Positions 36,101 to 48,636 of a stretch of 64,000 bases of DNA are shown piece by piece. Position 1 is the stretch's first letter. Every line of letters begins with the position of its first letter. The stretch is from assembly GCA_902778455.1 (NCBI GenBank), contig CACYXR010000001.1, positions 1-64,000 of the forward strand, given 5' to 3'. The notes under the pieces were generated by a model. That model made no database searches, was not told where the DNA came from, and saw only the letters and a list, made by a program, of their open reading frames with translations. Origin of the DNA: an uncultured Selenomonadaceae bacterium. Lineage in GTDB: Bacteria > Bacillota > Negativicutes > Selenomonadales > Selenomonadaceae. The translations under genes and the position numbers were made by a program.

Positions 36101-36411
36101 CCGCACACCTCCAGCAAAAATTTGTATTTTTCAATTTTTCCCAAGTGTATATTCGCCCTTCATCCTTGATTCCCTTTTTTCCCCGCAAAAATGCTGTGTA
36201 AGTCCCAGAAGATTTTATCGTTGCATTCCTGACCCATCCGCATTATAATAAAAGCAAGTACGAATTGTCTGACAAGAGGCGGTGGTCTTTTGCCGGCAAA
36301 GGAAGGGGGCGGCGTTTCCGATTCGCGGAAGCCGTGCATGACTTGCGGCTTTCCGAAAGTGTGGGGAGCGCGTTTCCCTCAAAAAATTATATTTAATAAG
36401 GAGTGGAATGT
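36101..36411 (+). other. Divergent intergenic region with a 160-base leader
   Basis: There is no gene here. It holds the rightward promoter (36221-36249) and an untranslated leader of about 155 bases with two G+C-rich hairpins (GGCGTTTCCG pairing with CGGAAGCC around 36312-36336, and a smaller one after it). I could not match the leader to a known riboswitch. Confidence 0.5.
36221..36249 (+). promoter_or_regulatory. Promoter of the substrate-binding lipoprotein
   Basis: TTGCAT (36221-36226), a 17-base spacer and a perfect TATAAT (36244-36249), located 163 bases upstream of the ATG at 36412. Confidence 0.7.
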
Positions 36412-37467
36412 ATGAAGAAAAAGGCACTCGCGTTACTGATGGTCCTTTGCATGGCCTTGACGACAGCTCTTGTCGCGGGTTGCGGCGGCGGACCGAAACC
36501 CCAATCCTCCGGCTCGGGCTCGGGCTCCGGTTCCGGCGCAGCGGGCGCAAAGAACAAACTCGTAATTTATACCTCAATGAAGGAAGCACTGATCAGCGGC
36601 ATCGTCGAGGGATTCAAGAAGAAGAACCCCGGCATCGAGGTCGACTACCAGTCCGCGGGCGCGGGCAAGCTGATGGCGAAGATCGCCGCCGAGAAGCAGA
36701 GCGGCCATATCCTCGCCGACGTCATCTGGACCAGCGAAGTTCCCGACTTCTATCAGATGAAATCCCAGAACATGCTGGAAAACTATAAGACCCCGATTTT
36801 CAACGAACTGCTGAACCCGTTTGACGATTATGACGGAAGCTTCACGGCAGCTCGTCTCGGCACCCTCGGTATCGTCTACAACACCGACAAGATCAAAGAA
36901 GCCCCGACCCAGTGGTCCGACCTGCTGAAGCCGGAATACAACAAGGGCTTCGGCATCGCCGACCCGGCTCTCTCCGGCACGTCCTACATGAGCGTCGCTC
37001 TCCTGGAGAAGCAGTTCGGCTGGGATTTCTTCAACAAGCTGCATGACAACGGCACGCGCATCGGCAAAGGCTCCGGCCAGGTCGTTGACGACACCTCCTC
37101 CGGCGAGCTCGTCGCCTGCCTCGGCGTCGACTACATCACCAACAGCAAGATCGCGAAAGGCGCGCATCTGAAGATGGCGTATCCGCCCGAACTGCTGATG
37201 GTCCCGAGCCCGGTCGCAATCTTCAAGGGCGCGAACAACGTCGAAGCCGCGAAGAAATTCGTCGATTATCTGTTGAGCCAGGAAGCCCAGCAGAAAGTCG
37301 CCGAAGCCGGCACCGTCCCCGTCCGCAAGGACGTCAAGATTCCCGAGAAGTACAACCTCCCCGCTCCTGAGGTCGCCCTCAAGAACGGCATCAAGGTGAG
37401 CTACACCGAAATCCTCCCGAAGAAGGAAGAGACGATCAAGAAGTTCACGGAGATCATCAAGAAGTAA
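36412..37467 (+). CDS. Fe(III)-type ABC transporter substrate-binding lipoprotein
   Basis: A 351-aa lipoprotein (LVAGC lipobox, Cys24, then a Ser/Gly linker) of the bacterial extracellular solute-binding family 1/6, close in pattern to FbpA/FutA iron-binding proteins: KLVIYTSMKEALISGIVEGF, YQSAGAGKLMAKI, DVIWTSEVPDFY, LGIVYNTDKI and GTVPVRKDVK. The start is ATG 36412 with AAGGAG. A terminator follows, so it is a single-gene unit. Its likely membrane partners are encoded 7 kb downstream (44792-48636), which lacks a binding protein. Ligands other than iron, such as phosphonates, cannot be excluded. Confidence 0.85.
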   Translation: MKKKALALLMVLCMALTTALVAGCGGGPKPQSSGSGSGSGSGAAGAKNKLVIYTSMKEALISGIVEGFKKKNPGIEVDYQSAGAGKLMAKIAAEKQSGHILADVIWTSEVPDFYQMKSQNMLENYKTPIFNELLNPFDDYDGSFTAARLGTLGIVYNTDKIKEAPTQWSDLLKPEYNKGFGIADPALSGTSYMSVALLEKQFGWDFFNKLHDNGTRIGKGSGQVVDDTSSGELVACLGVDYITNSKIAKGAHLKMAYPPELLMVPSPVAIFKGANNVEAAKKFVDYLLSQEAQQKVAEAGTVPVRKDVKIPEKYNLPAPEVALKNGIKVSYTEILPKKEETIKKFTEIIKK

Positions 37468-37655: not shown

Positions 37656-37855
37656 ACTCCGGCCATTAAATTTCGCTCACACAACTCCCTTGCCTTCCCC
37701 TTGAGGGGAAGGTGGCGCCCGCAGGGCGACGGATTAGGTGTCTTAGAGGTTTCGCTGACGCTTGGCATTGCGTCTTTCCACCTCATCCGTCAGCTTCGCT
37801 GACACCTTCCCCTCGAAGGGGAAGGCAAGATTTCGTGATTTTTAATGGCCAAAGT
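37656..37855. repeat. Composite repeat, full copy f
   Basis: A 200-bp element with outer ends ACTCCGGCCATTAAA and TTTTTAATGGCCAAAGT and, inside them, CTTGCCTTCCCCTTGAGG ... CCTCGAAGGGGAAGGCAAG. The interior holds GCAGGGCGACGGATTAGGTG and CCACCTCATCCGTCAGCTTC. It ends 22 bases before the phosphatase start codon. Confidence 0.9.
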
Positions 37856-37877
37856 CATAAAAACGGAGTGGGATTTT

Positions 37878-40049
37878 TTGAAACTGAACATCAAGCGCCG
37901 TGTTTTGCTGTGGAGCCTGTTTGCCTCTCTCCTGACCTTTCTTTTGGCGGGCGCGATTTACTTTTACTCCATGTCAGGCACGAAGGACGCGTTTGCCAGA
38001 CAGTGGGCGGCCTTGGGGGACAACGTCGCGGAATCCGTGGGGGAGATTTCCGGGCAGGACACAAAGGAACGCTTGCTGGAATCGGCTGTCCTCAAAGCGC
38101 ACCATATCGACCGCGAGCTTTCCCTCATCGGCGAGGATGCGGAATATATAGCGGATCGGATGTCCATGCTTTTGACCTCGCCCGAACCGTATCCCCCGCG
38201 AACGCTCCAAAGCACCCGAGACAGCGCAAGCATACCGTCAGGAACGCCTTATATCCATTTCAGCCCATCCCTTGCAAGCGCGCCCATCGGGAGCGATCTG
38301 GCGGAAGAAATCGGGACCGCCGGCAATGTTGCCGACACACTGATCCTGATGAGCCAGTCCTACCAGGGCTACCGTTCCTGTTTTTTCGCCGCCTCGCGCA
38401 AAGGCTTTGCGTTTTACCTCGACATCACGGAGGACGGGAAAGGAAACGTACTCCCCGACGGAGCGGCCCGCGAAGATATACTCTCCGACTTCGACCCCCG
38501 GGAGCAGCCGTGGTATGAAATCGGGCGAAACGCGAGCGGCGCGACATATACGGCGCCTGATCCCGGCATCGACGGCCGCCTGAACATCAACTGCGTAGTC
38601 CCGTTTTATGACGCGGACGGATTCGCCGGCGTCGCGGGCATCGTCATCCCCGTGGAGGACGTATATCGCCAGATTGCCGAAACGGTCACCGGCACGTCCG
38701 ACATCGTTTTTGCCGTTGACAATCGCGGCGATGTGGTGTTTTCCTCCCTGGAGTCCGGCGGCCTGGCGGCGGCGCCGGCAGACGTCGATATCCGGGAGTC
38801 GGGGGAAGAATCGCTTGCGGCGGCGACGCAGCGCATGACCGCGGGCGAAAGCGGCGTCGTTCCCGTCACCGTGGACGGGGAAGCGTATTATTTGGCATTC
38901 GCCCCCATGCCCGCCATCGGCTGGAGCTTCGGCACGCTGGTCAAAACGGACACGGTCATGGCGCCCGCCATCGAAGCGCGAAGAAACGTCATTGCCGCTA
39001 CGAACGGATTCCGCGACACGCTGGAAGGCATCCTCTCCAACGCCTCACGGAATGCTTTTTTTGCCTTCGTGATGGCGGCGCTGCTTCTCATGATTGCAAG
39101 TGAACCGCTGGCAAGCCACATCACGAACCCCATCCGAAAGCTGTCCGACGGCGTGCGGAAAATTGCGGGCGGCAATCTCGAATACAAGCTGGACGTGCAG
39201 ACAGGCGACGAGATCGAGCTCCTCGCCGACAGCTTCAACCATATGACGGAAGAACTTTCGGCGTATATGAAAAACCTGGAGCGCTCCACCGCCGAAAAGG
39301 AACGCATCCGGACGGAACTCGACCTTGCGCGGAACATACAGGACGGCATGCTGCCGAAAGACTTCCCGCAGCAAAGGGAATTTGATCTCATTGCGACGAT
39401 GCGCCCCGCGAAAGAAGTCGGCGGCGACTTTTACGATTTCTATTTCCTCGATGAAACGCATCTTGCGGTGACGGTGGCCGACGTGTCCGACAAGGGGATT
39501 CCCGCGGCGCTCTTCATGGTCATCGCGAAAACCCTGCTGAAGGACAGCACGGTCGGGGCGAAAAATCCCGAAAAGCTGTCAGAGGCCGTGGCGCAGGCCA
39601 ATGAAGCCCTCATCAGCAACAATCAGGAAGGGATGTTCGTCACCGCCTTTTGCGGCGTCCTCGATTTGAAAACCGGAAAATTCCTGTACGCAAACGCAGG
39701 CCACAACCCGCCCCTCATTCGCCGCGGTGCGGCATTTTCCTGTTTCGAGAAGAGCGAAAGCCTGATGCTCGGCGTCATGCCGGGAGAAACGTTCCCGGCA
39801 AAAACGTTCGCGCTCTCCCCCGGCGACGCGCTTTTCCTCTATACCGACGGCGTCACCGAAGCGCTGGACAAGCACCGCGAAATGTTCAGGGAAAAGAGAC
39901 TAAAAGCGACGCTTGACAGCACGCCGGAAGGGACGGACGCCGCCGGGCTGATTGCCGCGGTCCAAACGGCCCTTGAAAGCCACACCGAAGGCGCCGAACA
40001 GTCGGACGACATCACGATGCTCGCTCTCGTATATCACGGAAGCGGTTGA
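37878..40049 (+). CDS. Sensor phosphatase: Cache-HAMP-SpoIIE (RsbU-like)
   Basis: A 723-aa membrane protein that should dephosphorylate a STAS-domain partner on receipt of an external signal. TM1 is at about 10-30, a dCache sensor domain at about 40-335, TM2 at about 365-385, HAMP at about 390-440 (HITNPIRKLSDGVRKIAGG), and a PP2C/SpoIIE domain at about 480-720 with VGGDFYDF (about 515-522), VADVSDKGIPAALF, DGVTEAL and SDDITMLAL, the metal-binding aspartates. I chose TTG 37878 because ACGGAGTGG lies just upstream and the protein then starts MKLNIKRRVLL; an ATG at 37845 lies inside the repeat. The next gene encodes the STAS protein. Confidence 0.92.
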   Translation: MKLNIKRRVLLWSLFASLLTFLLAGAIYFYSMSGTKDAFARQWAALGDNVAESVGEISGQDTKERLLESAVLKAHHIDRELSLIGEDAEYIADRMSMLLTSPEPYPPRTLQSTRDSASIPSGTPYIHFSPSLASAPIGSDLAEEIGTAGNVADTLILMSQSYQGYRSCFFAASRKGFAFYLDITEDGKGNVLPDGAAREDILSDFDPREQPWYEIGRNASGATYTAPDPGIDGRLNINCVVPFYDADGFAGVAGIVIPVEDVYRQIAETVTGTSDIVFAVDNRGDVVFSSLESGGLAAAPADVDIRESGEESLAAATQRMTAGESGVVPVTVDGEAYYLAFAPMPAIGWSFGTLVKTDTVMAPAIEARRNVIAATNGFRDTLEGILSNASRNAFFAFVMAALLLMIASEPLASHITNPIRKLSDGVRKIAGGNLEYKLDVQTGDEIELLADSFNHMTEELSAYMKNLERSTAEKERIRTELDLARNIQDGMLPKDFPQQREFDLIATMRPAKEVGGDFYDFYFLDETHLAVTVADVSDKGIPAALFMVIAKTLLKDSTVGAKNPEKLSEAVAQANEALISNNQEGMFVTAFCGVLDLKTGKFLYANAGHNPPLIRRGAAFSCFEKSESLMLGVMPGETFPAKTFALSPGDALFLYTDGVTEALDKHREMFREKRLKATLDSTPEGTDAAGLIAAVQTALESHTEGAEQSDDITMLALVYHGSG

Positions 40050-40099
40050 GAGATTTGCACGATATTATTTTTACAGCAACAACAAACGGAGGTATATGC

Positions 40100-41704
40100 A
40101 TGGACATCAGCATCACGAAAAAAATCGACGGGGAGACGCTTACGCTGTGCCTTGCGGGGCGGCTTGACAAGCTCACGGGGCCGACCTTCGACGCGGAATT
40201 TCGCGCCTCCAGCCCCGGATTCCAAGAGACCGTGCTGGATATTTCCGAGCTTGGGTATCTTTCCTCGGCAGGACTCCGTTCCCTGATCATGGCAAACAAC
40301 CAAATGAAAAAGCAGGGCGGCGTCCTGACGGTCAAAAATCCGACGCCCGATGTGATGGACGTATTCGAGATGACGAATTTCGGGCGGCTGATCCGGATCG
40401 TGAAGGACGAGGAAGGCGCGCCGGAGGTCGAGAAGCCTCTGCAATATTACCCCCTGCGTCCGATCCAGCGCTGGCTCGTCGATACCCATTTCCAAAAGGC
40501 AAACTCAACGATGATGAACATCGGTGCTTTGGTGCGGCTTGATGCGTCTGTCGATATGGAGCGCATGGCCGACGCGCTGAACGACATCCTGTCTTCCTAT
40601 GACATATTCCGCTGCCGGCTGCTGTTCCACCCCGAAACGGGGGAAGTCTGCCAGCGTTTCGACGGGGAAGTGGAACGGGTCTTTGTGGAAACACTTTCAG
40701 ACGAAGCTTTTGAAAAGCGCAAGCGCGACCTCAAGGAACCCTATTCGATCATTGACCGCCCGCTCTATCGGGTGCACCTGATGAAGACCCCGTCGGGACA
40801 ATATATTTACGCGGACTTTTACCATGCCACCGTGGACGGCACGGCAGTCGCGCTGATTTTTTGGCGGGAACTCGACAAACGCTATGTGCGGGGCGCGGAG
40901 AACGCCGTCGCACGAAAAACGCCGAGCTACGCCGAATATGTCCTCGCCGAGTCGAAGATTTCCCCGGAAGAGTTGGCGGAAGGGCACGCCTACTGGAGAA
41001 AAACGCTCGAAGACTTTGACGAGAAAAAGCACCTGCCGCCCGCCGACGTCGAAAACGCCGGGGCGTGGAAGAAAAACGAGTTCGAGACGCCGCTGAAAAC
41101 CGTCATTGCCAAAGACTTTTTCCGGGGCAAGGATTTTACGGAAAATACATTTTTCATGGCGGCGGCGATGCTCGCGATGGCGAAATCGTCAGGCGTCCGC
41201 GAATCCGTCATGAGCTGGGTGCACAACGGGCGCATGAACGCCTCGGAACGCCGCTTGATGGGACTCATGCTGAACCAGATTCCCATCCGCTGGGACTTCG
41301 GGGACGGGCTGACCGCCGGTGCATTCCTGCGCGGCCTGGAAGCGCGGATCGCGGAAGGGATGAAATACGTCAAGAGTTTGGACGTAGTGTATAACGAAGG
41401 TCTCGAAGACCTGTGCGCCACCTTTATCCTCCAAAAGGGCGTCACGGGACGTCGCGGCGGCGCGCGCCTCGGAGGCGCGGAGGCCGTGTACGAGGAAATG
41501 CCGGAAAACGAATGGTCGGCGGCGGAAAATACGCTGGACGTCGAACTGAACGCCCATACCGACGGGACGTATTCACTGGTGTTGAATTACGACGCCAGCC
41601 GCTACTCCGCGGACGCCATGCGCCGCTTCTCCCAAACGGTGGACGAGATGATCGGGGCGCTCACGGATGCGGAACGGGACGTGACGGAACTTTTGAAAGC
41701 GTGA
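40100..41704 (+). CDS. STAS anti-anti-sigma domain fused to a condensation domain
   Basis: A 534-aa cytoplasmic fusion. Residues 1-105 are a STAS domain (RsbV/SpoIIAA-like): DISELGYLSSAGLRSL places Ser56 at the regulatory phosphorylation site. Residues from about 112 to 530 are an NRPS-type condensation/acyltransferase domain: YYPLRPIQRWLVDT, DIFRCRLLF, the catalytic FYHATVDGTA (His242, Asp246), SWVHNGRMNASERRLMGLML and NQIPIRW. There is no carrier or adenylation domain here or nearby. ATG 40100 has CGGAGG 8 bases upstream. It lies between the SpoIIE-type phosphatase and the MATE-ATPase fusion. The enzyme may make an ester or amide product whose formation is switched by phosphorylation (inference). 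Confidence 0.9.
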   Translation: MDISITKKIDGETLTLCLAGRLDKLTGPTFDAEFRASSPGFQETVLDISELGYLSSAGLRSLIMANNQMKKQGGVLTVKNPTPDVMDVFEMTNFGRLIRIVKDEEGAPEVEKPLQYYPLRPIQRWLVDTHFQKANSTMMNIGALVRLDASVDMERMADALNDILSSYDIFRCRLLFHPETGEVCQRFDGEVERVFVETLSDEAFEKRKRDLKEPYSIIDRPLYRVHLMKTPSGQYIYADFYHATVDGTAVALIFWRELDKRYVRGAENAVARKTPSYAEYVLAESKISPEELAEGHAYWRKTLEDFDEKKHLPPADVENAGAWKKNEFETPLKTVIAKDFFRGKDFTENTFFMAAAMLAMAKSSGVRESVMSWVHNGRMNASERRLMGLMLNQIPIRWDFGDGLTAGAFLRGLEARIAEGMKYVKSLDVVYNEGLEDLCATFILQKGVTGRRGGARLGGAEAVYEEMPENEWSAAENTLDVELNAHTDGTYSLVLNYDASRYSADAMRRFSQTVDEMIGALTDAERDVTELLKA

Positions 41705-41784
41705 GGAAGGCCTATGCATAAAAAAACTTGCCGCCCGATTTCTATTTCCGGCCATCTGCAGGCAGCTTTCGGAGCAGCGGTGTA

Positions 41785-43560
41785 ATGGAAAAGGATTCGT
41801 CGCTTTCGGCGTATTTTACCCGAAAAATGTTCCTGCGGGCCGTATTGCCCTCGCCCATCGCGGGCGTCGGGCTGGCGCTGGCGGAGATGGGCGATACCAT
41901 TCTGATCGGCCACGCCATCGGCATGGACGGGATTGCCGCCATTGCGTATATCTCCCCGCTGTTCCTGCTGGCGACCTTTTTCGTCTTTGGCCTCTCCACG
42001 GGCGGCGCGGTGGTTTTCTCGACGCTGATGCACGAAGGGGAAAAAGACCGGGCGCTGGCAATCTTCAACTTTTTCCTGCGCCTCTCCTGCGCCGTCGGCT
42101 TTGGCATCATGGCGGCAGGGCTTCTCATGGGGGACAGCCTGCTTTCTGTCCTCGGCGCGACGCCGGAAGAAGGCGCCGTGTTCGCTATGGCGAAAAGCTA
42201 TGTCTTCTATATCCTCCTGGGGATTCCCTTCCAGATCCTGCTGGGCGTGGTGACGGCCTATCTCCGGAACGACAACGCCACCGCGTTCTCCGTCGCGCTT
42301 CAGACGGCGGCGGGCGTCGGCAACCTCATCCTCAGCGCGATCCTGTTGCTCTTTTTCGATTGGGGCGTCGCGGGATGCAGCTTCGGCTTCTTCGCCTCGA
42401 ACGCGGCGGCGTTCCTCGTCGGCTTCCTCTATCTCTTCTCGGGGCACGGGGAACTCAGAGTCCGGCGGGAAACCGCCTCCTTCGCCGATGCGGTGAAGCC
42501 CCTGCGGCTCGGCTTCGCGACTTCCTTTGAATATATCTTCGGCGCGATCTTCGCCCTCGTTTCCCTCCACCTGCTGACGAATCTTGCGGGCACGGAGGGT
42601 GCGGCGATCTTCAACATCGTCGAAAACCTGTCCCAGCTTTTCATCTTTATGTACGAACTCATCGGAAAGACGGCGCAGCCCATTTTTTCCGCGTTTTTCT
42701 CGGAATGCATTTTTCGCGAGCTGCACCGTATGTTCCGGTACTGCCTCGCCTATTCTCTGGCGGTAGGCGCCGTCGCCACCGTCGCCGCGATTATCTATCC
42801 GGAAATCGTGGACCTGCTCTTCGGACTGGAGGACATAAGGGACGCGGCGGCGGCCTATCACGCGGTGCGGGTCTTTTGCGTCGGAGCGATTTTCATGGGC
42901 GTATGCCTCCTGCTGCAAAATTACTTCCAATCCGAGGAGGATGAGCAGGGCGCGTTTCTCGTCGTCTTCTTGCGGCGAATGGGCTTAGGCATTGTTTTGG
43001 CATGGGTGCTGTCCCGTTTCGGCCTCGACGCCTTTTGGCTGGTGTACCCGCTCTCCGAGCTTCTGACGCTGCTCGCCGTTGTCGTTTACCATCGCCGCCG
43101 GGGCGAACGGAAGAACATCGATCCGGCGAGGGTCTACGCCTCCGCTTTTTACGGCAGCGTCAAAACCGTGGCGGAACAGCTCGACGCCATCGACGCTTTC
43201 GCGGCGCACTGGGGCGCCGACGAGCACAAGCGGTTTTTGCTCCGCATGGCATTGGATGAAATCTCGGGCGTCATCAACGAACGCGCCGCCCGCCGCGCCA
43301 ATACGCACGTCTTGCTGCAGCTTACGCTGATTGCCAAAGAACAGGCCGAAACGCAAAGCCCCGAATTCGAGATTCACCTTCGGGACGACGCGAAAGAATT
43401 CGACCCCTTCCTGCTCCCCGTCGGGCCGATTTCCGCCGTGCCGGAACAAGCGGAAGATCTGGACGTGGAGGCGCTCGGCATGTACTTCGTACAAAGCCGC
43501 GTCCGGAGCTTCTACTTCCGAAATTATCAGGGCTTCAATACGACCATGATAGTCATATAA
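41785..43560 (+). CDS. MATE exporter fused to an RsbW-like ATPase domain
   Basis: A 591-aa protein. Residues 1 to about 440 are a MATE/NorM transporter with twelve predicted helices (LPSPIAGVGLALAEMGDTIL, QILLGVVTAYLRND). From about 444 to the end is a GHKL/HATPase domain of the serine-kinase (RsbW) type, set in the cytoplasm: ALDEISGVINERA (Glu492), LRDDAKEFDPF (D534-P541) and EALGMYFV (563-570) stand for the N, G1 and G2 boxes, ending FNTTMIVI. The N-box Asn and the G1 glycine differ from the consensus, so ATP use may be weakened. ATG 41785 follows GGAG by 10 bases. It is the third gene of the block, 80 bases after the STAS fusion. Confidence 0.88.
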   Translation: MEKDSSLSAYFTRKMFLRAVLPSPIAGVGLALAEMGDTILIGHAIGMDGIAAIAYISPLFLLATFFVFGLSTGGAVVFSTLMHEGEKDRALAIFNFFLRLSCAVGFGIMAAGLLMGDSLLSVLGATPEEGAVFAMAKSYVFYILLGIPFQILLGVVTAYLRNDNATAFSVALQTAAGVGNLILSAILLLFFDWGVAGCSFGFFASNAAAFLVGFLYLFSGHGELRVRRETASFADAVKPLRLGFATSFEYIFGAIFALVSLHLLTNLAGTEGAAIFNIVENLSQLFIFMYELIGKTAQPIFSAFFSECIFRELHRMFRYCLAYSLAVGAVATVAAIIYPEIVDLLFGLEDIRDAAAAYHAVRVFCVGAIFMGVCLLLQNYFQSEEDEQGAFLVVFLRRMGLGIVLAWVLSRFGLDAFWLVYPLSELLTLLAVVVYHRRRGERKNIDPARVYASAFYGSVKTVAEQLDAIDAFAAHWGADEHKRFLLRMALDEISGVINERAARRANTHVLLQLTLIAKEQAETQSPEFEIHLRDDAKEFDPFLLPVGPISAVPEQAEDLDVEALGMYFVQSRVRSFYFRNYQGFNTTMIVI

Positions 43561-44791: not shown

Positions 44792-45883
44792 TTGGACATT
44801 ATCCGTGTGGAGAACGTGTCGAAAGGGTATCCGAATCATCCGGTGCTTCAGAACCTTTCTCTCACGCTGAAAAAGGGCGAGTGCTTCACCCTGCTCGGTC
44901 CTTCCGGCTGCGGGAAGACCGTGCTTTTGCGGCTGCTCGCCGGATTCGAGTCCGCCGACGCGGGGAAGATCTACATCGGCGATACGCTGGTGAACGATCC
45001 CGAGGCGCGGATTGCCGTGCCGCCGGAAAACCGCGGGCTCGGCGTCGTGTTCCAGGATTACGCCGTCTGGCCGCACATGACCGTCTTCGAGAACGTGGCG
45101 TATCCGTTGAAGATCGCCGACCGTCCGAAAGACGAGATCAACGAGCGCGTCATGCGCATGATCGACATCGTCGGCATGAAGGGCCTTGACAAGCGCCTGC
45201 CATCGGAGCTTTCCGGCGGCCAGCAGCAGCGCGTCGCATTGGCCCGCGCCCTCGTCGCCGATCCGGCCCTGCTTCTCCTCGACGAGCCGCTGTCAAACCT
45301 TGACGCGAACCTGCGCGAGGAAATGCGCTTCGAAATCAAAGAGCTGCAGCGGCAGCTCGGCGTCACGGTACTTTACGTCACCCACGACCAGGAAATCGGC
45401 CTCGCCATTTCCGACCGCGTGGCCATCATGAACGCCGAAGGCGCGATCCAGCAGATCGGCACGCCCTGGGAAATCTTCGAGCAGCCGGTCAACCCGTTCG
45501 TGTTCAACTTCATGGGCATCGCGAACTTCATCGACGTGCGCAAAGAGAACGGCGCGTTCCTCGTCGGAAAAGGCAGCCAGCCGATTCCCTGGGAAACGCC
45601 CACGGGCGACGCTGCGGACTGGGTCGCGGCCTTCCGTCCGTCGGACGTCAGGATCGCCCGCGGCGGCGACGGACTCCACGGCGTGATCCGCCGCGCGAAC
45701 TTCCTCGGCGCCATGATGGACTACCTGATCGAGATCGACGGCACGCATCTTCGGACGAGCATCGAAACCCATCATGCCATCGCGCAGGATTTGATGTTCA
45801 AGGCCGGAGACGAATGCTCGCTGTCGTTTTTAAGCCTGCACTGGTTCGAAAAGGAATCGCTGAAGGGGGTGCTTGAGGAATGA
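44792..45883 (+). CDS. ABC transporter ATPase 1 (Fe(III)-type)
   Basis: A 363-aa ATPase. Walker A GPSGCGKT at about 36-43, Q-loop FQDYAVWPHM, signature LSGGQQQRVALARAL, Walker B LLLLDEP and the switch His (VTHDQ) are all intact. A C-terminal TOBE-like region follows, as in FbpC/PotA-type proteins. It starts with TTG 44792 (AAAGGAG, 10 bases). It overlaps the permease start by ATGA, so it is translationally coupled. Confidence 0.9.
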   Translation: MDIIRVENVSKGYPNHPVLQNLSLTLKKGECFTLLGPSGCGKTVLLRLLAGFESADAGKIYIGDTLVNDPEARIAVPPENRGLGVVFQDYAVWPHMTVFENVAYPLKIADRPKDEINERVMRMIDIVGMKGLDKRLPSELSGGQQQRVALARALVADPALLLLDEPLSNLDANLREEMRFEIKELQRQLGVTVLYVTHDQEIGLAISDRVAIMNAEGAIQQIGTPWEIFEQPVNPFVFNFMGIANFIDVRKENGAFLVGKGSQPIPWETPTGDAADWVAAFRPSDVRIARGGDGLHGVIRRANFLGAMMDYLIEIDGTHLRTSIETHHAIAQDLMFKAGDECSLSFLSLHWFEKESLKGVLEE

Positions 45884-47562
45884 ACACGAAAAGCTCATTC
45901 GGCGTGGCGCAGGTCATCCTGTTCCTGTCCATCGCCATCCTCGTCATCGTCGTGGCCTTCCCGGTGCTCCTGATCCTATTCAACGCGTTCTGGGTCGAGG
46001 ACCATTTCAATTTCTCCGGCGCGATTGACATCCTGAAGGAGCCGGAGACCTTCAAGGCGTTGATGAACTCGCTGATCATCGCCGGTATGTCCACCATCGG
46101 CTCTACCATCGTCGGCACCTTCTTCGCGTGGCTCGTCACGCGGACCGATATGCCGCACAAGCGGTTCATGAAGAGCATGTTCCTCGTGCCGTTCATGCTG
46201 CCGTCCTTCATCGGCGCCATGGCCTGGAAGATGCTGCTCTCGCCGAACGCCGGCTTCATCAACCGTTTCTTCATGGACCATCTCGGCTTTGGCGGCCCGA
46301 TTTTCAATCTTTACAGCTATTATGGCATTTCCGCCGTCGAAGTCATGTACCTGTTCCCCTTCGTGTTCATCCAGGTCTGCGGCGCTTTGGAGCGCATGGA
46401 CCCGACGCTGGAGGAATCGGCGCGCATCTCGGGCGCGGGGCTCTTCACCATCACGCGGAAAATCACGATCCCGCTGGTGCTGCCTTCGATCCTTTCCGGC
46501 GCGCTCCTGATCATGCTCTACTCGATGGCCCACTTCGGCACCGTCGCCGTGCTCGGCATCGAGAACGGCATCTACAACATCCCGGTGCTGATTTACGAGC
46601 GCATCCACCAGTCGGGCGGCTCCTTCGAGTCGATCCGCACCGGTACCGTGCTCGCCACCGTGCTGGTCATCAGCGCGGCCTGCATCATCTGGGCCCAGCG
46701 CAAGATCCTCGGCTCCGGCCACTACCAGATCATCGGCGGCAAGAGCTTCCGCCCGATGGAGCTGAAGCTCCGCGGACTCAAATACCCGCTGATGTTCTTC
46801 TGCTTCGCCTATATCGCGTTCACCATCGTATTGCCCACCATCGTGATCTTCCTCGTCGGCGGCCTCAGTACCTACGGCCTGTCCTTCACGCCGGAAAACC
46901 TGTCGCTGGACAACTTCAAGTTCATCCTGTTTGAATACGACGTAACAAGAGACGCGATCTTCAACAGCGTCACGCTGGGCCTGACCGCCGCGATCATCAC
47001 CATGTTCGCCGGCGTCATGATCTCCTACGTCATCGTCAAGATGGACGTCAAGGGCAAAGGCATCCTCGAATTCCTCGGCATGCTGCCGTTCTCCGTTCCG
47101 GGCTCGGTCATCGCCCTCGGCGTTATCCTCGCATGGAGCGGCCAGTTCGGAATCAACCTCTACAACACCGTCTGGATTATCCTCGTGGCCTACATCGCCC
47201 GCTATATGGCCTTCTCGCTGAAAGCCAACAGCGCGGCCCTCGAGCAGGTCCACGACTCGCTGGTCGAGGCCTCCCGCGCTTGCGGCGCCACCATGTGGCA
47301 GTCGCTGAAAGACATCGTGCTGCCGCTGGTCAAGCCGGGCATGTTCGCGGCCTTCTTCCTGATCTTCCTGCCGTCGCTTCGAGAGCTGACCGTTTCGATC
47401 ATGCTCTACGCGCCGACCACGCGCACCATCGGCGTCGCCATCTACACGCTGAACGAGGACGGCGAGACCGTCATCTCCTGCGCGCTGGCCGCCATCGCCC
47501 TGATCATCATCATCGTCGGGCAGACGGTCATCAACCATTTCACGAAAAAGGAGAGTGAGTGA
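45880..47562 (+). CDS. ABC transporter double permease
   Basis: A 560-aa membrane protein with two BPD_transp_1 permease halves (about 12 helices), as in FbpB/SfuB iron permeases. The EAA loops that contact the ATPase are EESARISGAGLFTITRKITI (about 190) and VEASRACGATMWQSLKDIVL (about 465). No binding protein is encoded in this operon; the best candidate is the lipoprotein at 36412-37467. Two ATPase genes flank it. Confidence 0.92.
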   Translation: MNTKSSFGVAQVILFLSIAILVIVVAFPVLLILFNAFWVEDHFNFSGAIDILKEPETFKALMNSLIIAGMSTIGSTIVGTFFAWLVTRTDMPHKRFMKSMFLVPFMLPSFIGAMAWKMLLSPNAGFINRFFMDHLGFGGPIFNLYSYYGISAVEVMYLFPFVFIQVCGALERMDPTLEESARISGAGLFTITRKITIPLVLPSILSGALLIMLYSMAHFGTVAVLGIENGIYNIPVLIYERIHQSGGSFESIRTGTVLATVLVISAACIIWAQRKILGSGHYQIIGGKSFRPMELKLRGLKYPLMFFCFAYIAFTIVLPTIVIFLVGGLSTYGLSFTPENLSLDNFKFILFEYDVTRDAIFNSVTLGLTAAIITMFAGVMISYVIVKMDVKGKGILEFLGMLPFSVPGSVIALGVILAWSGQFGINLYNTVWIILVAYIARYMAFSLKANSAALEQVHDSLVEASRACGATMWQSLKDIVLPLVKPGMFAAFFLIFLPSLRELTVSIMLYAPTTRTIGVAIYTLNEDGETVISCALAAIALIIIIVGQTVINHFTKKESE

Positions 47563-47565
47563 CCG

Positions 47566-48636
47566 ATGGCAGGCTTTGTACGTCTGATCGGCGTGACGAA
47601 ACGGTTTGGCGACGTCACCGCCGTCAACAATCTGAACTACGAAATCGGCAAGGGCGAATGCTTCTCGATGCTCGGTCCTTCCGGCTGCGGCAAGACCACG
47701 ACGCTCCGCATGGTGGCGGGCTTTGAGGATTTGTCCGACGGAGAGGTCTGGGTCGGCGACCAGCTCTTTTCCTCGCCGAAGAAAAACCATTATACGCCGC
47801 CGGAAAAGCGGAACTTCGGCATGGTGTTCCAGGCCTTCGCCGTCTGGCCCCACCTTTCCGTCTATGAAAACGTGGCGTTCCCGCTGCGCATCCGCAAGCT
47901 CTCCGAAAGCGAGATCGACCAGCGCACCATGGACGCGCTGAAAGCGACGAACCTCGTCTCTGCGAAAGACCAAAGTCCGGACTATCTGTCCGGCGGCGGC
48001 AAGCAGCGCGTGGCCCTCGCCCGGGCGCTGGCCATCAATCCGGACGTAATGCTGCTCGACGAACCGCTTTCCTCCCTCGATCCGCACCTCCGCGAGGAAA
48101 TGCGCTTCGAGATCAAGGATTTGCAAATGAAATACGGCTTCTCGATCATCTACGTCACCCACGACCAATCCGAGGCCATGGCGCTGTCCGACCGGATTCT
48201 CGTCATGAAGCTCGGCGTCGTCCAACAGATCGACACGCCGCTGAACATCTACAACAACCCGGCGAACAAGTTCGTGTTCAGCTTTATCGGCCTCTCGAAC
48301 TTCCTGACGGTGAACCGGGACGGCGGCAGCGCCCAGCTTCCGGGCGGCGTTCCGCTTCCGGCGGGCGTCACGGTACCCGAACATCTCGCGGGCGAAAGCG
48401 TCGTCTCCTGGGCCAGCCGCCCCTCCGAGATCGACTTCCTTCCCGCCGACGACCCGACCGGTCTCCACGGCGTCGTAAACCGCAAGGCGTTCCTCGGCGA
48501 AATCATCGACTACCAGATCCAGGTCGGCGAGCAGACGCTCCGTGTGCAGAAAGGCCGCCGCGATCCCGGCCCAGAACCGGGCGAGACCTGCGCGCTGCAC
48601 TTCCTGCGCCCGTTCTGGTACAGGGAAAACGAATAA
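47566..48636 (+). CDS. ABC transporter ATPase 2
   Basis: A 356-aa ATPase related to the product of 44792-45883. Walker A GPSGCGKT, Q-loop FQAFAVWPHL and Walker B LLDEPLSSLD are standard, but the signature reads YLSGGGKQRVALARAL where LSGGQQQR is usual. A TOBE-like tail follows. It begins three bases after the permease. The two ATPases may form a heterodimer on the single double permease (inference). Confidence 0.88.
   Translation: MAGFVRLIGVTKRFGDVTAVNNLNYEIGKGECFSMLGPSGCGKTTTLRMVAGFEDLSDGEVWVGDQLFSSPKKNHYTPPEKRNFGMVFQAFAVWPHLSVYENVAFPLRIRKLSESEIDQRTMDALKATNLVSAKDQSPDYLSGGGKQRVALARALAINPDVMLLDEPLSSLDPHLREEMRFEIKDLQMKYGFSIIYVTHDQSEAMALSDRILVMKLGVVQQIDTPLNIYNNPANKFVFSFIGLSNFLTVNRDGGSAQLPGGVPLPAGVTVPEHLAGESVVSWASRPSEIDFLPADDPTGLHGVVNRKAFLGEIIDYQIQVGEQTLRVQKGRRDPGPEPGETCALHFLRPFWYRENE

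Follow-up and report, generated by a model that had tools for sequence, protein, structure and literature searches.

A STAS domain joined to an intact NRPS-type condensation domain, between a sensor phosphatase gene and a MATE exporter gene, in mostly rumen bacteria

Why would a condensation domain of the NRPS family carry a STAS domain at its N terminus, and what could such an attachment control? The question is raised by a gene at 40100–41704 of the window, that is, of the whole stretch of 64,000 nucleotides analysed here. Its open reading frame (40046–41704, plus strand) most likely starts at the ATG at 40100, after a ggaggt ribosome site, and encodes a chain of 534 amino acids, in which a STAS domain and an intact condensation (C) domain lie in one open frame. 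The gene and its two neighbours comprise the following features.

37845–40049, plus strand: dCache-HAMP-PP2C (SpoIIE/RsbU-type) phosphatase, 734 aa (Pfam SpoIIE 3.4e-47, HAMP 2.4e-15, dCache_1 3.1e-15)
40100–40429, plus strand: STAS domain, residues 1–110 of the fusion (Pfam STAS_2 7.9e-12)
40265–40267, plus strand: Ser56, conserved in all 31 fusion rows of the alignment
40430–41701, plus strand: condensation domain, residues 111–534 of the fusion (Pfam Condensation 1.4e-37)
40823–40825, plus strand: His242, the catalytic His of YHxxxDG, invariant in 44 of 44 rows
41785–43560, plus strand: MATE exporter with a C-terminal RsbW-like (GHKL) domain, 591 aa (Pfam MatE 2.2e-18, HATPase_c_2 1.9e-4)
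43111–43557, plus strand: RsbW-like GHKL domain of the MATE protein, with the N-box Asn and the G1 Gly both missing

The initial annotation had read a STAS and a C domain in a single chain, with Ser56 and His242 conserved and a short linker between the two parts. This reading stands. Both Pfam matches exceed their cut-offs in the one frame (Condensation, PF00668, 129.9 bits against 30.6; STAS_2, 45.6 bits against 29.2), and both residues are conserved and in register. The AlphaFold model of the wild-type fusion, a check that the annotation had itself suggested, was computed from 44 alignment rows (pLDDT 88, pTM 0.74) and recovered the C-domain fold; residues 105–113 were the only stretch with a pLDDT below 50, as befits a short linker. 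An active-site histidine out of register would have spoken against the annotation, and in the phmmer alignment YHATVDG, the motif that contains His242, falls on the HHxxxDG of PvdL and bacitracin synthetase. The C-domain alignment consisted of the window and 43 of the 73 loci in our named collection, frame-broken, truncated and near-duplicate loci and some further stand-alone ones having been left out. H242, D246 and G247 were kept in all 44 rows, and tyrosine took the place of the first His of HHxxxDG in every one of them. The model has the two-lobed C fold, with the starter C domain of RzmA as its best match (7c1p_A; VIA Z 33.0, 393 residues, rmsd 3.4). The top matches of the fold search were tied (RzmA 33.0, MokA 32.6, Txo2 32.2) and do not separate the starter, LCL, PapA and WES subclasses; the PapA and WES-DGAT families were absent among the 50 fold matches listed and the 36 PDB sequences from phmmer. 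By score, motif and fold, the C domain of the fusion belongs to the NRPS condensation family.

The fusion is neither a chance nor a sequencing join, because 31 full-length copies occur in 28 of the 189 genomes of the window's family, and because the fusion is found at 38 of the 73 named-collection loci in addition to the window. Some match was present in 113 of the 189 genomes, the remainder being the C or the STAS part alone, or ordinary NRPS. In a sample of 398 genomes spread evenly over the phylum, the fusion profile (E<=1e-30) matched five, the window's own among them and all of the same family. The titles of the 73 loci refer mostly to rumen species and to rumen or gut metagenome bins, and the taxa include Schwartzia, Selenomonas ruminantium, Succiniclasticum, Anaerovibrio, Quinella and Lachnospiraceae; the closest named relative is Schwartzia succinivorans DSM 10502 (89%). 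The fusion family occurs mostly in rumen bacteria. A MAG labelled Synergistota (L069) is nested among the Selenomonadaceae, which may reflect a transfer or a binning error. In the tree, all 13 of the C domains lacking STAS that were used fall in one clade (98/98), a topology that would fit either a single gain of the STAS domain or a single loss.

The STAS domain aligns in register with the RsbV-like protein of the same genome. It also matched Pfam STAS (3.1e-9, over the cut-off) and scored 49.3 bits with NCBIfam ant_ant_sig, under the cut-off of 53.45. Ser56 is presumably the counterpart of the serine that is phosphorylated in RsbV and SpoIIAA. It was present in every row of the 31 fusion loci aligned (out of 39), Lachnospiraceae included, and the neighbouring positions 55 and 57 vary. 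The conserved phosphorylated serine of SpoIIAA/RsbV is described in passages of a review (PMC8256260). A phospho-switch in the fusion gains plausibility because a PP2C gene lies directly upstream and because the product of the next gene carries an RsbW-like domain.

The genes for the phosphatase, the fusion and the MATE protein all point the same way and are separated by about 50 and 80 bp. The phosphatase gene ends 50 bp before the fusion gene, and the MATE reading frame, listed from the TTG at 41728, likely starts at an ATG. We propose that the dCache-HAMP-PP2C protein is a sensor that dephosphorylates the STAS domain of the fusion. Among the three operon genes, Pfam gave neither a sigma factor nor a cyclase. 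The MATE tail scores 21.9 bits with HATPase_c_2, under the cut-off of 27.4. Its model is modest (pLDDT 67.5), and the first 14 Foldseek matches were RsbW, SpoIIAB and UsfX complexes, the best with an E-value of 5.8e-3; the model thus supports the predicted RsbW-like fold in part. When the tails were aligned with the canonical RsbW of the window genome, the N-box Asn was missing in 27 of 30, only three Anaerovibrio rows keeping it, and the G1 Gly was missing in nine, the window included. The tail may therefore not be a kinase, and from these residues a binding platform appears the more likely role. The operon is flanked in the window by a solute-binding protein and an ABC permease/ATPase set (36403–37467 and 44792–48636), the best matches of which are the 2-aminoethylphosphonate models PhnS2/T2/U2, under cut-off. 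To judge by this arrangement, the operon may have been inserted into that ABC transport locus.

How constant this neighbourhood is was counted by tblastn over the window and the 73 loci. One locus (L130) had no C-domain match, and the others divide into 39 fusions and 34 stand-alone C domains lacking STAS. Of the 39 fusion loci, 20 have a PP2C gene no more than 400 bp upstream, and 22 have a gene for an A-PCP-C protein directly downstream. The MATE gene is present in 36, the other three (L062, L087, L095) being on contigs that end first, and it carries the RsbW-like tail in 32. By manual reading of the neighbour table, we recognized three sets of fusions. In the NRPS-type set (n=23, the window included), PP2C is upstream in 20 loci and A-PCP-C directly downstream in 18; in four of these loci (L072, L074, L120, L129) the PP2C and fusion genes are separated by a free STAS gene. 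The type-2 set (n=12) comprises Anaerovibrio and a second Selenomonas paralogue, and has no PP2C within 400 bp and no A-PCP-C within reach, three of the loci being cut by contig ends. The other nine (L076, L080–L086, L124) contain genes for an RND pump and for two DUF6056 membrane proteins. In the set from rumen Lachnospiraceae (n=4), A-PCP-C is found in all four and PP2C in none; the MATE protein is without a tail in three, and one contig is cut. In the three Lachnospiraceae loci that reach far enough, the operon of STAS-C, A-PCP-C and MATE is followed by a methylmalonyl-CoA decarboxylase alpha-like gene (L100:16157-17701, L107:16051-16841 and L117:16049-17593; the L117 product matches TIGR01117 at 3.6e-201, under cut-off, and those of L100 and L107 are similar to it).

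A MATE gene adjoins the stand-alone C domain in 15 of the 34 loci, and in 14 it has the RsbW-like tail; therefore the tail needs no fused STAS. Many of the stand-alone loci (L088–L128) are from Quinella or Selenomonadales, and sometimes the domains are in tandem (L091). Matches to Pot-type (PotA/PotB/PotD) transporters, all under cut-off, lie beside the stand-alone C domains in 23 of the 34 loci, from which amine conjugation would be a possible role for these domains. A polyamine link was considered for the fusions also, and set aside. Only one of the 39 fusion loci has a Pot-type match (L059, with the ABC ATPase query alone), and the comparable ATPase in the window matches PhnT2 and PotA about equally.

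The initial annotation had described the C domain as stand-alone, and here it has to be corrected. In many relatives the fusion is half of a split NRPS. Since A-PCP-C is the next gene in 22 of the 39 fusion loci, the fusion is to be regarded there as providing the first C domain, in trans, to a mini-NRPS that is split over two genes. The A-PCP-C protein of relatives matches AMP-binding (1.1e-76), PP-binding (1.7e-4) and Condensation (1.7e-24) in Pfam, and has an intact carrier motif (GGDSL) and an intact HPIIDG in its own, second C domain. By eye, its first 200 residues resemble a remnant of a C domain, a stretch that is absent from the four Lachnospiraceae proteins; such a degenerate N terminus would fit a fusion that supplies the working C domain in trans. 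For the A domain of the L061 protein, the residues at the GrsA code positions were tentatively read by eye as D, G, A, D, I, V, E, V, S.

In the window itself the absence of carrier and adenylation domains, which the initial annotation had also reported, is borne out: PF00550 gave no match, and the A-PCP-C protein of a relative, used as query, found only the C domain of the fusion. The absence extends further. At E<=1e-60, A-PCP-C had no match in the window genome (100% complete, 34 contigs) or in G139 and G129, its two nearest fusion relatives, and in G119 the A-PCP-C gene is located about 5 kb past the MATE gene and not between it and the fusion. The window's lineage has therefore lost the partner, with a displaced state in the close relative G119. 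Type-2 fusions likewise persist without A-PCP-C in the near-complete genomes G142, G157 and G008. Between the window and L058, both without A-PCP-C, dN/dS was 0.076 for the C domain, 0.197 for STAS and 0.136 for the RsbW-like tail (our own NG86 script; dS about 0.4 to 0.6). The C domain is thus under strong purifying selection despite the absent A-PCP-C.

What could serve in place of the partner? The initial annotation concluded that the substrates must be small acyl or amino donors or a distant carrier, and either may hold for the window. A search for carriers across the genome, which the initial annotation had suggested, gave three PF00550 matches (E<=0.01), all outside the window. The genome holds, outside the window, small carriers and a stand-alone amino-acid adenylation enzyme. 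The latter scores 353.9 bits with TIGR01733, whose cut-off is 317.4, and is encoded on contig C22 close to two small carrier-like ORFs. We rejected the C22 cluster as a general replacement for the lost partner. Homologues (E<=1e-70) were present in six of 26 genomes, both with and without A-PCP-C, and were absent from G142, G157 and G008, which carry the fusion without A-PCP-C; a partnership specific to the window is possible. The cluster (L131:7722-16653) encodes, along with the adenylation enzyme and the two carrier-like ORFs, a DegT aminotransferase, a PglD-like protein, a KAS III, an SDR and an acyl-CoA-ligase-like protein, and on this gene content is possibly an acylated-sugar pathway. 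The only other condensation-family protein of the genome (617 aa; L002:1363-3216, G000:C31:26722-27933) has, by eye, AAQIIMD where HxxxDG has been lost, and ends with a weak cyclic-nucleotide-binding match (3e-4). This makes it the second C domain of the genome with a regulatory-type domain attached.

Other parts of a partner switch are found in the same genome. A free canonical RsbW and an RsbV-like protein are encoded as a pair on contig C9, and each of the seven other fusion genomes checked, four of them Lachnospiraceae, has one or more genes for an RsbW-like kinase that score above the Pfam cut-off. The free RsbW, like its counterparts in those seven genomes, could be the kinase for Ser56. 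A second, independent module, on contig C19 (L179:5100-12397), encodes a dCache-HAMP-PP2C protein, a STAS protein, a periplasmic binding protein, a GGDEF protein and a Na:dicarboxylate symporter, the symporter having an N-terminal HATPase_c_2 match of 19.3 bits, under cut-off. This module is apparently a partner switch wired to the symporter. Two transporters with RsbW-like domains beside PP2C and STAS genes hint that STAS domains address transporters, and the parallel between the C19 symporter and the MATE protein is the best independent hint of a contact between STAS and transporter.

The reading that we favor, with a probability of about 0.45, is that the fusion is a condensation enzyme, forming amides or esters by acyl transfer, in which STAS is both the switch and the docking arm of a partner-switch module. 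In gene content, the whole resembles such a switch. An outside cue read by the dCache phosphatase would keep Ser56 dephosphorylated; the bare STAS face would then bind the MATE tail or the free RsbW as its RsbW-type partner. Binding would hold or activate the C domain at the exporter, where the product would leave, and phosphorylation of Ser56 by an RsbW-type kinase would bring about release. In NRPS-type operons the C domain would work in trans with the neighboring A-PCP-C as a split mini-NRPS, whereas in the window's lineage, the partner being lost, it would have to turn to a different carrier or to acyl and amine substrates in solution. The fusion, its intact motifs and C fold, the order and conservation of the operon, the missing A-PCP-C and the purifying selection are direct observations; phosphorylation, docking, gating, substrate, product and export are what we infer from them. 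We regard a bolder and more specific version as somewhat doubtful, namely that Ser56 gates condensation by docking on the pseudo-RsbW of the exporter, such that synthesis would occur only where and when the product can leave, and that the window's enzyme has outlived its A-PCP-C and uses free substrates. Four findings count against a simple switch: the degeneracy of the MATE tails at the N-box Asn, the Lachnospiraceae operons (STAS kept without PP2C or tail), the type-2 loci that have no adjoining PP2C, and the RsbW-like tails beside C domains that have no STAS.

Two of these findings lend weight to a plainer role for STAS. It might merely dock the C domain to A-PCP-C or to the exporter, in the manner of an NRPS docking domain, with Ser56 kept for folding or binding and without phosphorylation. 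Binding of acyl carrier protein by a STAS domain has a precedent in YchM of E. coli; in Lachnospiraceae the STAS domain adjoins A-PCP-C in operons with neither PP2C nor an RsbW-like tail; and the pump tails are degenerate. Against docking as the sole role stand the PP2C gene directly upstream in 20 of the 23 NRPS-type fusions, the over-threshold kinase gene in 7/7 of the genomes checked, Lachnospiraceae among them, and the invariance of Ser56 between variable positions 55 and 57. We consider it unlikely that STAS only docks. It is more unlikely still that the locus is an ordinary transcriptional partner switch, in which STAS would titrate an anti-sigma factor (the free RsbW) and the C domain would be an input or a passenger. 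The free RsbW and RsbV-like pair would suit this, and the available portions of PMC2812497 read a separate anti-sigma antagonist by the NRPS of Methanobrevibacter ruminantium as regulating NRPS expression. Yet STAS is here joined to an intact and strongly conserved catalytic domain, the linkage to the exporter is steady, and none of the three operon genes encodes a sigma factor.

We give each of two further explanations a slim chance. One is that, after the loss of A-PCP-C, the pathway in the window's lineage is a decaying remnant. The lack of A-PCP-C at E<=1e-60 in the window genome, G139 and G129 and the tail without its two boxes would be expected of decay; a C-domain dN/dS of 0.076 between two species that both lack A-PCP-C, three genes with uninterrupted frames, intact motifs and the persistence of type-2 fusions without A-PCP-C in G142, G157 and G008 would not. 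The other, marginally slimmer, is that the C domain is a non-catalytic scaffold, or a sensor of an acyl or peptidyl ligand. The tyrosine that replaces the first His in all 44 rows is compatible with that, as is the genome's other PF00668 protein, which has lost the motif wholly and carries the weak cNMP-binding match, but the catalytic second His, the Asp and the Gly are invariant throughout the same rows.

Transcription and the supply of substrate are usually regarded as the means by which assembly-line enzymes are controlled. A conserved fusion encoded together with a sensor phosphatase and an exporter makes the post-translational control of a condensation enzyme directly testable, and suggests a direct coupling of small-molecule assembly to sensing and export. 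Since cultured, named strains carry the fusion (Schwartzia succinivorans DSM 10502, Selenomonas ruminantium ATCC 12561, Succiniclasticum ruminis DSM 9236, Anaerovibrio lipolyticus LB2005), there is a way to look for the product, in a habitat in which the gene is common to dozens of species.

Among known systems, the nearest working analogue is SiaABCD of Pseudomonas aeruginosa, a partner switch with an enzyme as its target. According to the available text of two reports, the phosphorylation state of SiaC, an activator of the cyclase SiaD, is under the control of the PP2C phosphatase SiaA and the kinase SiaB (PMC7647112, PMC8457831). A sensor PP2C phosphatase, a phosphorylatable switch protein (predicted in the window) and an enzyme target are common to both; SiaC, however, is a separate protein that binds the diguanylate cyclase SiaD, whereas the window's switch is fused to the C domain and its module includes an exporter. 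The best NCBIfam match of the window's phosphatase is SiaA (1.1e-21), at 77 bits against a cut-off of 700, and it is therefore not a SiaA equivalog. With RsbU/RsbV/RsbW and SpoIIE/SpoIIAA/SpoIIAB, the window shares a PP2C, a STAS domain with its serine and an RsbW-like domain. It differs in that the target is not evidently a sigma factor, in that STAS carries a catalytic domain, and in that the RsbW-like domain is on a pump and is without the N-box Asn in most rows. On the side of the enzyme, VibH is the comparison for a free-standing C domain. The C fold and HxxxDG are shared with free-standing and starter-C NRPS such as RzmA, and in relatives the fusion adjoins A-PCP-C; unlike the RzmA type, the window has an N-terminal STAS domain, a C domain supplied in trans and no A-PCP-C in the genome.

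A search for published STAS-condensation fusions gave no report in our literature survey, the coverage of which excluded most subscription journals; the portions available of a rumen survey that counts 5,346 NRPS clusters make no mention of the architecture (PMC8241843). The closest gene neighborhood in print is mru0066-0071 of Methanobrevibacter ruminantium M1, where, in the sections available, an NRPS is described amid serine phosphatases, an anti-sigma factor antagonist and a MatE efflux protein (PMC2812497). As in the window, an NRPS-type gene is found with a phosphatase, an antagonist-type protein or domain and MatE in an organism of the rumen. There, the genes are described as separate, and those sections assign to them the sensing of the environment, control over NRPS expression, and export; the NRPS is described as two C-A-T modules with a terminal thioesterase (PMC2812497). 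The parts are thus known individually, and an NRPS beside phosphatase, STAS and MatE genes is already in print; the fused combination is, as far as we have found, new.
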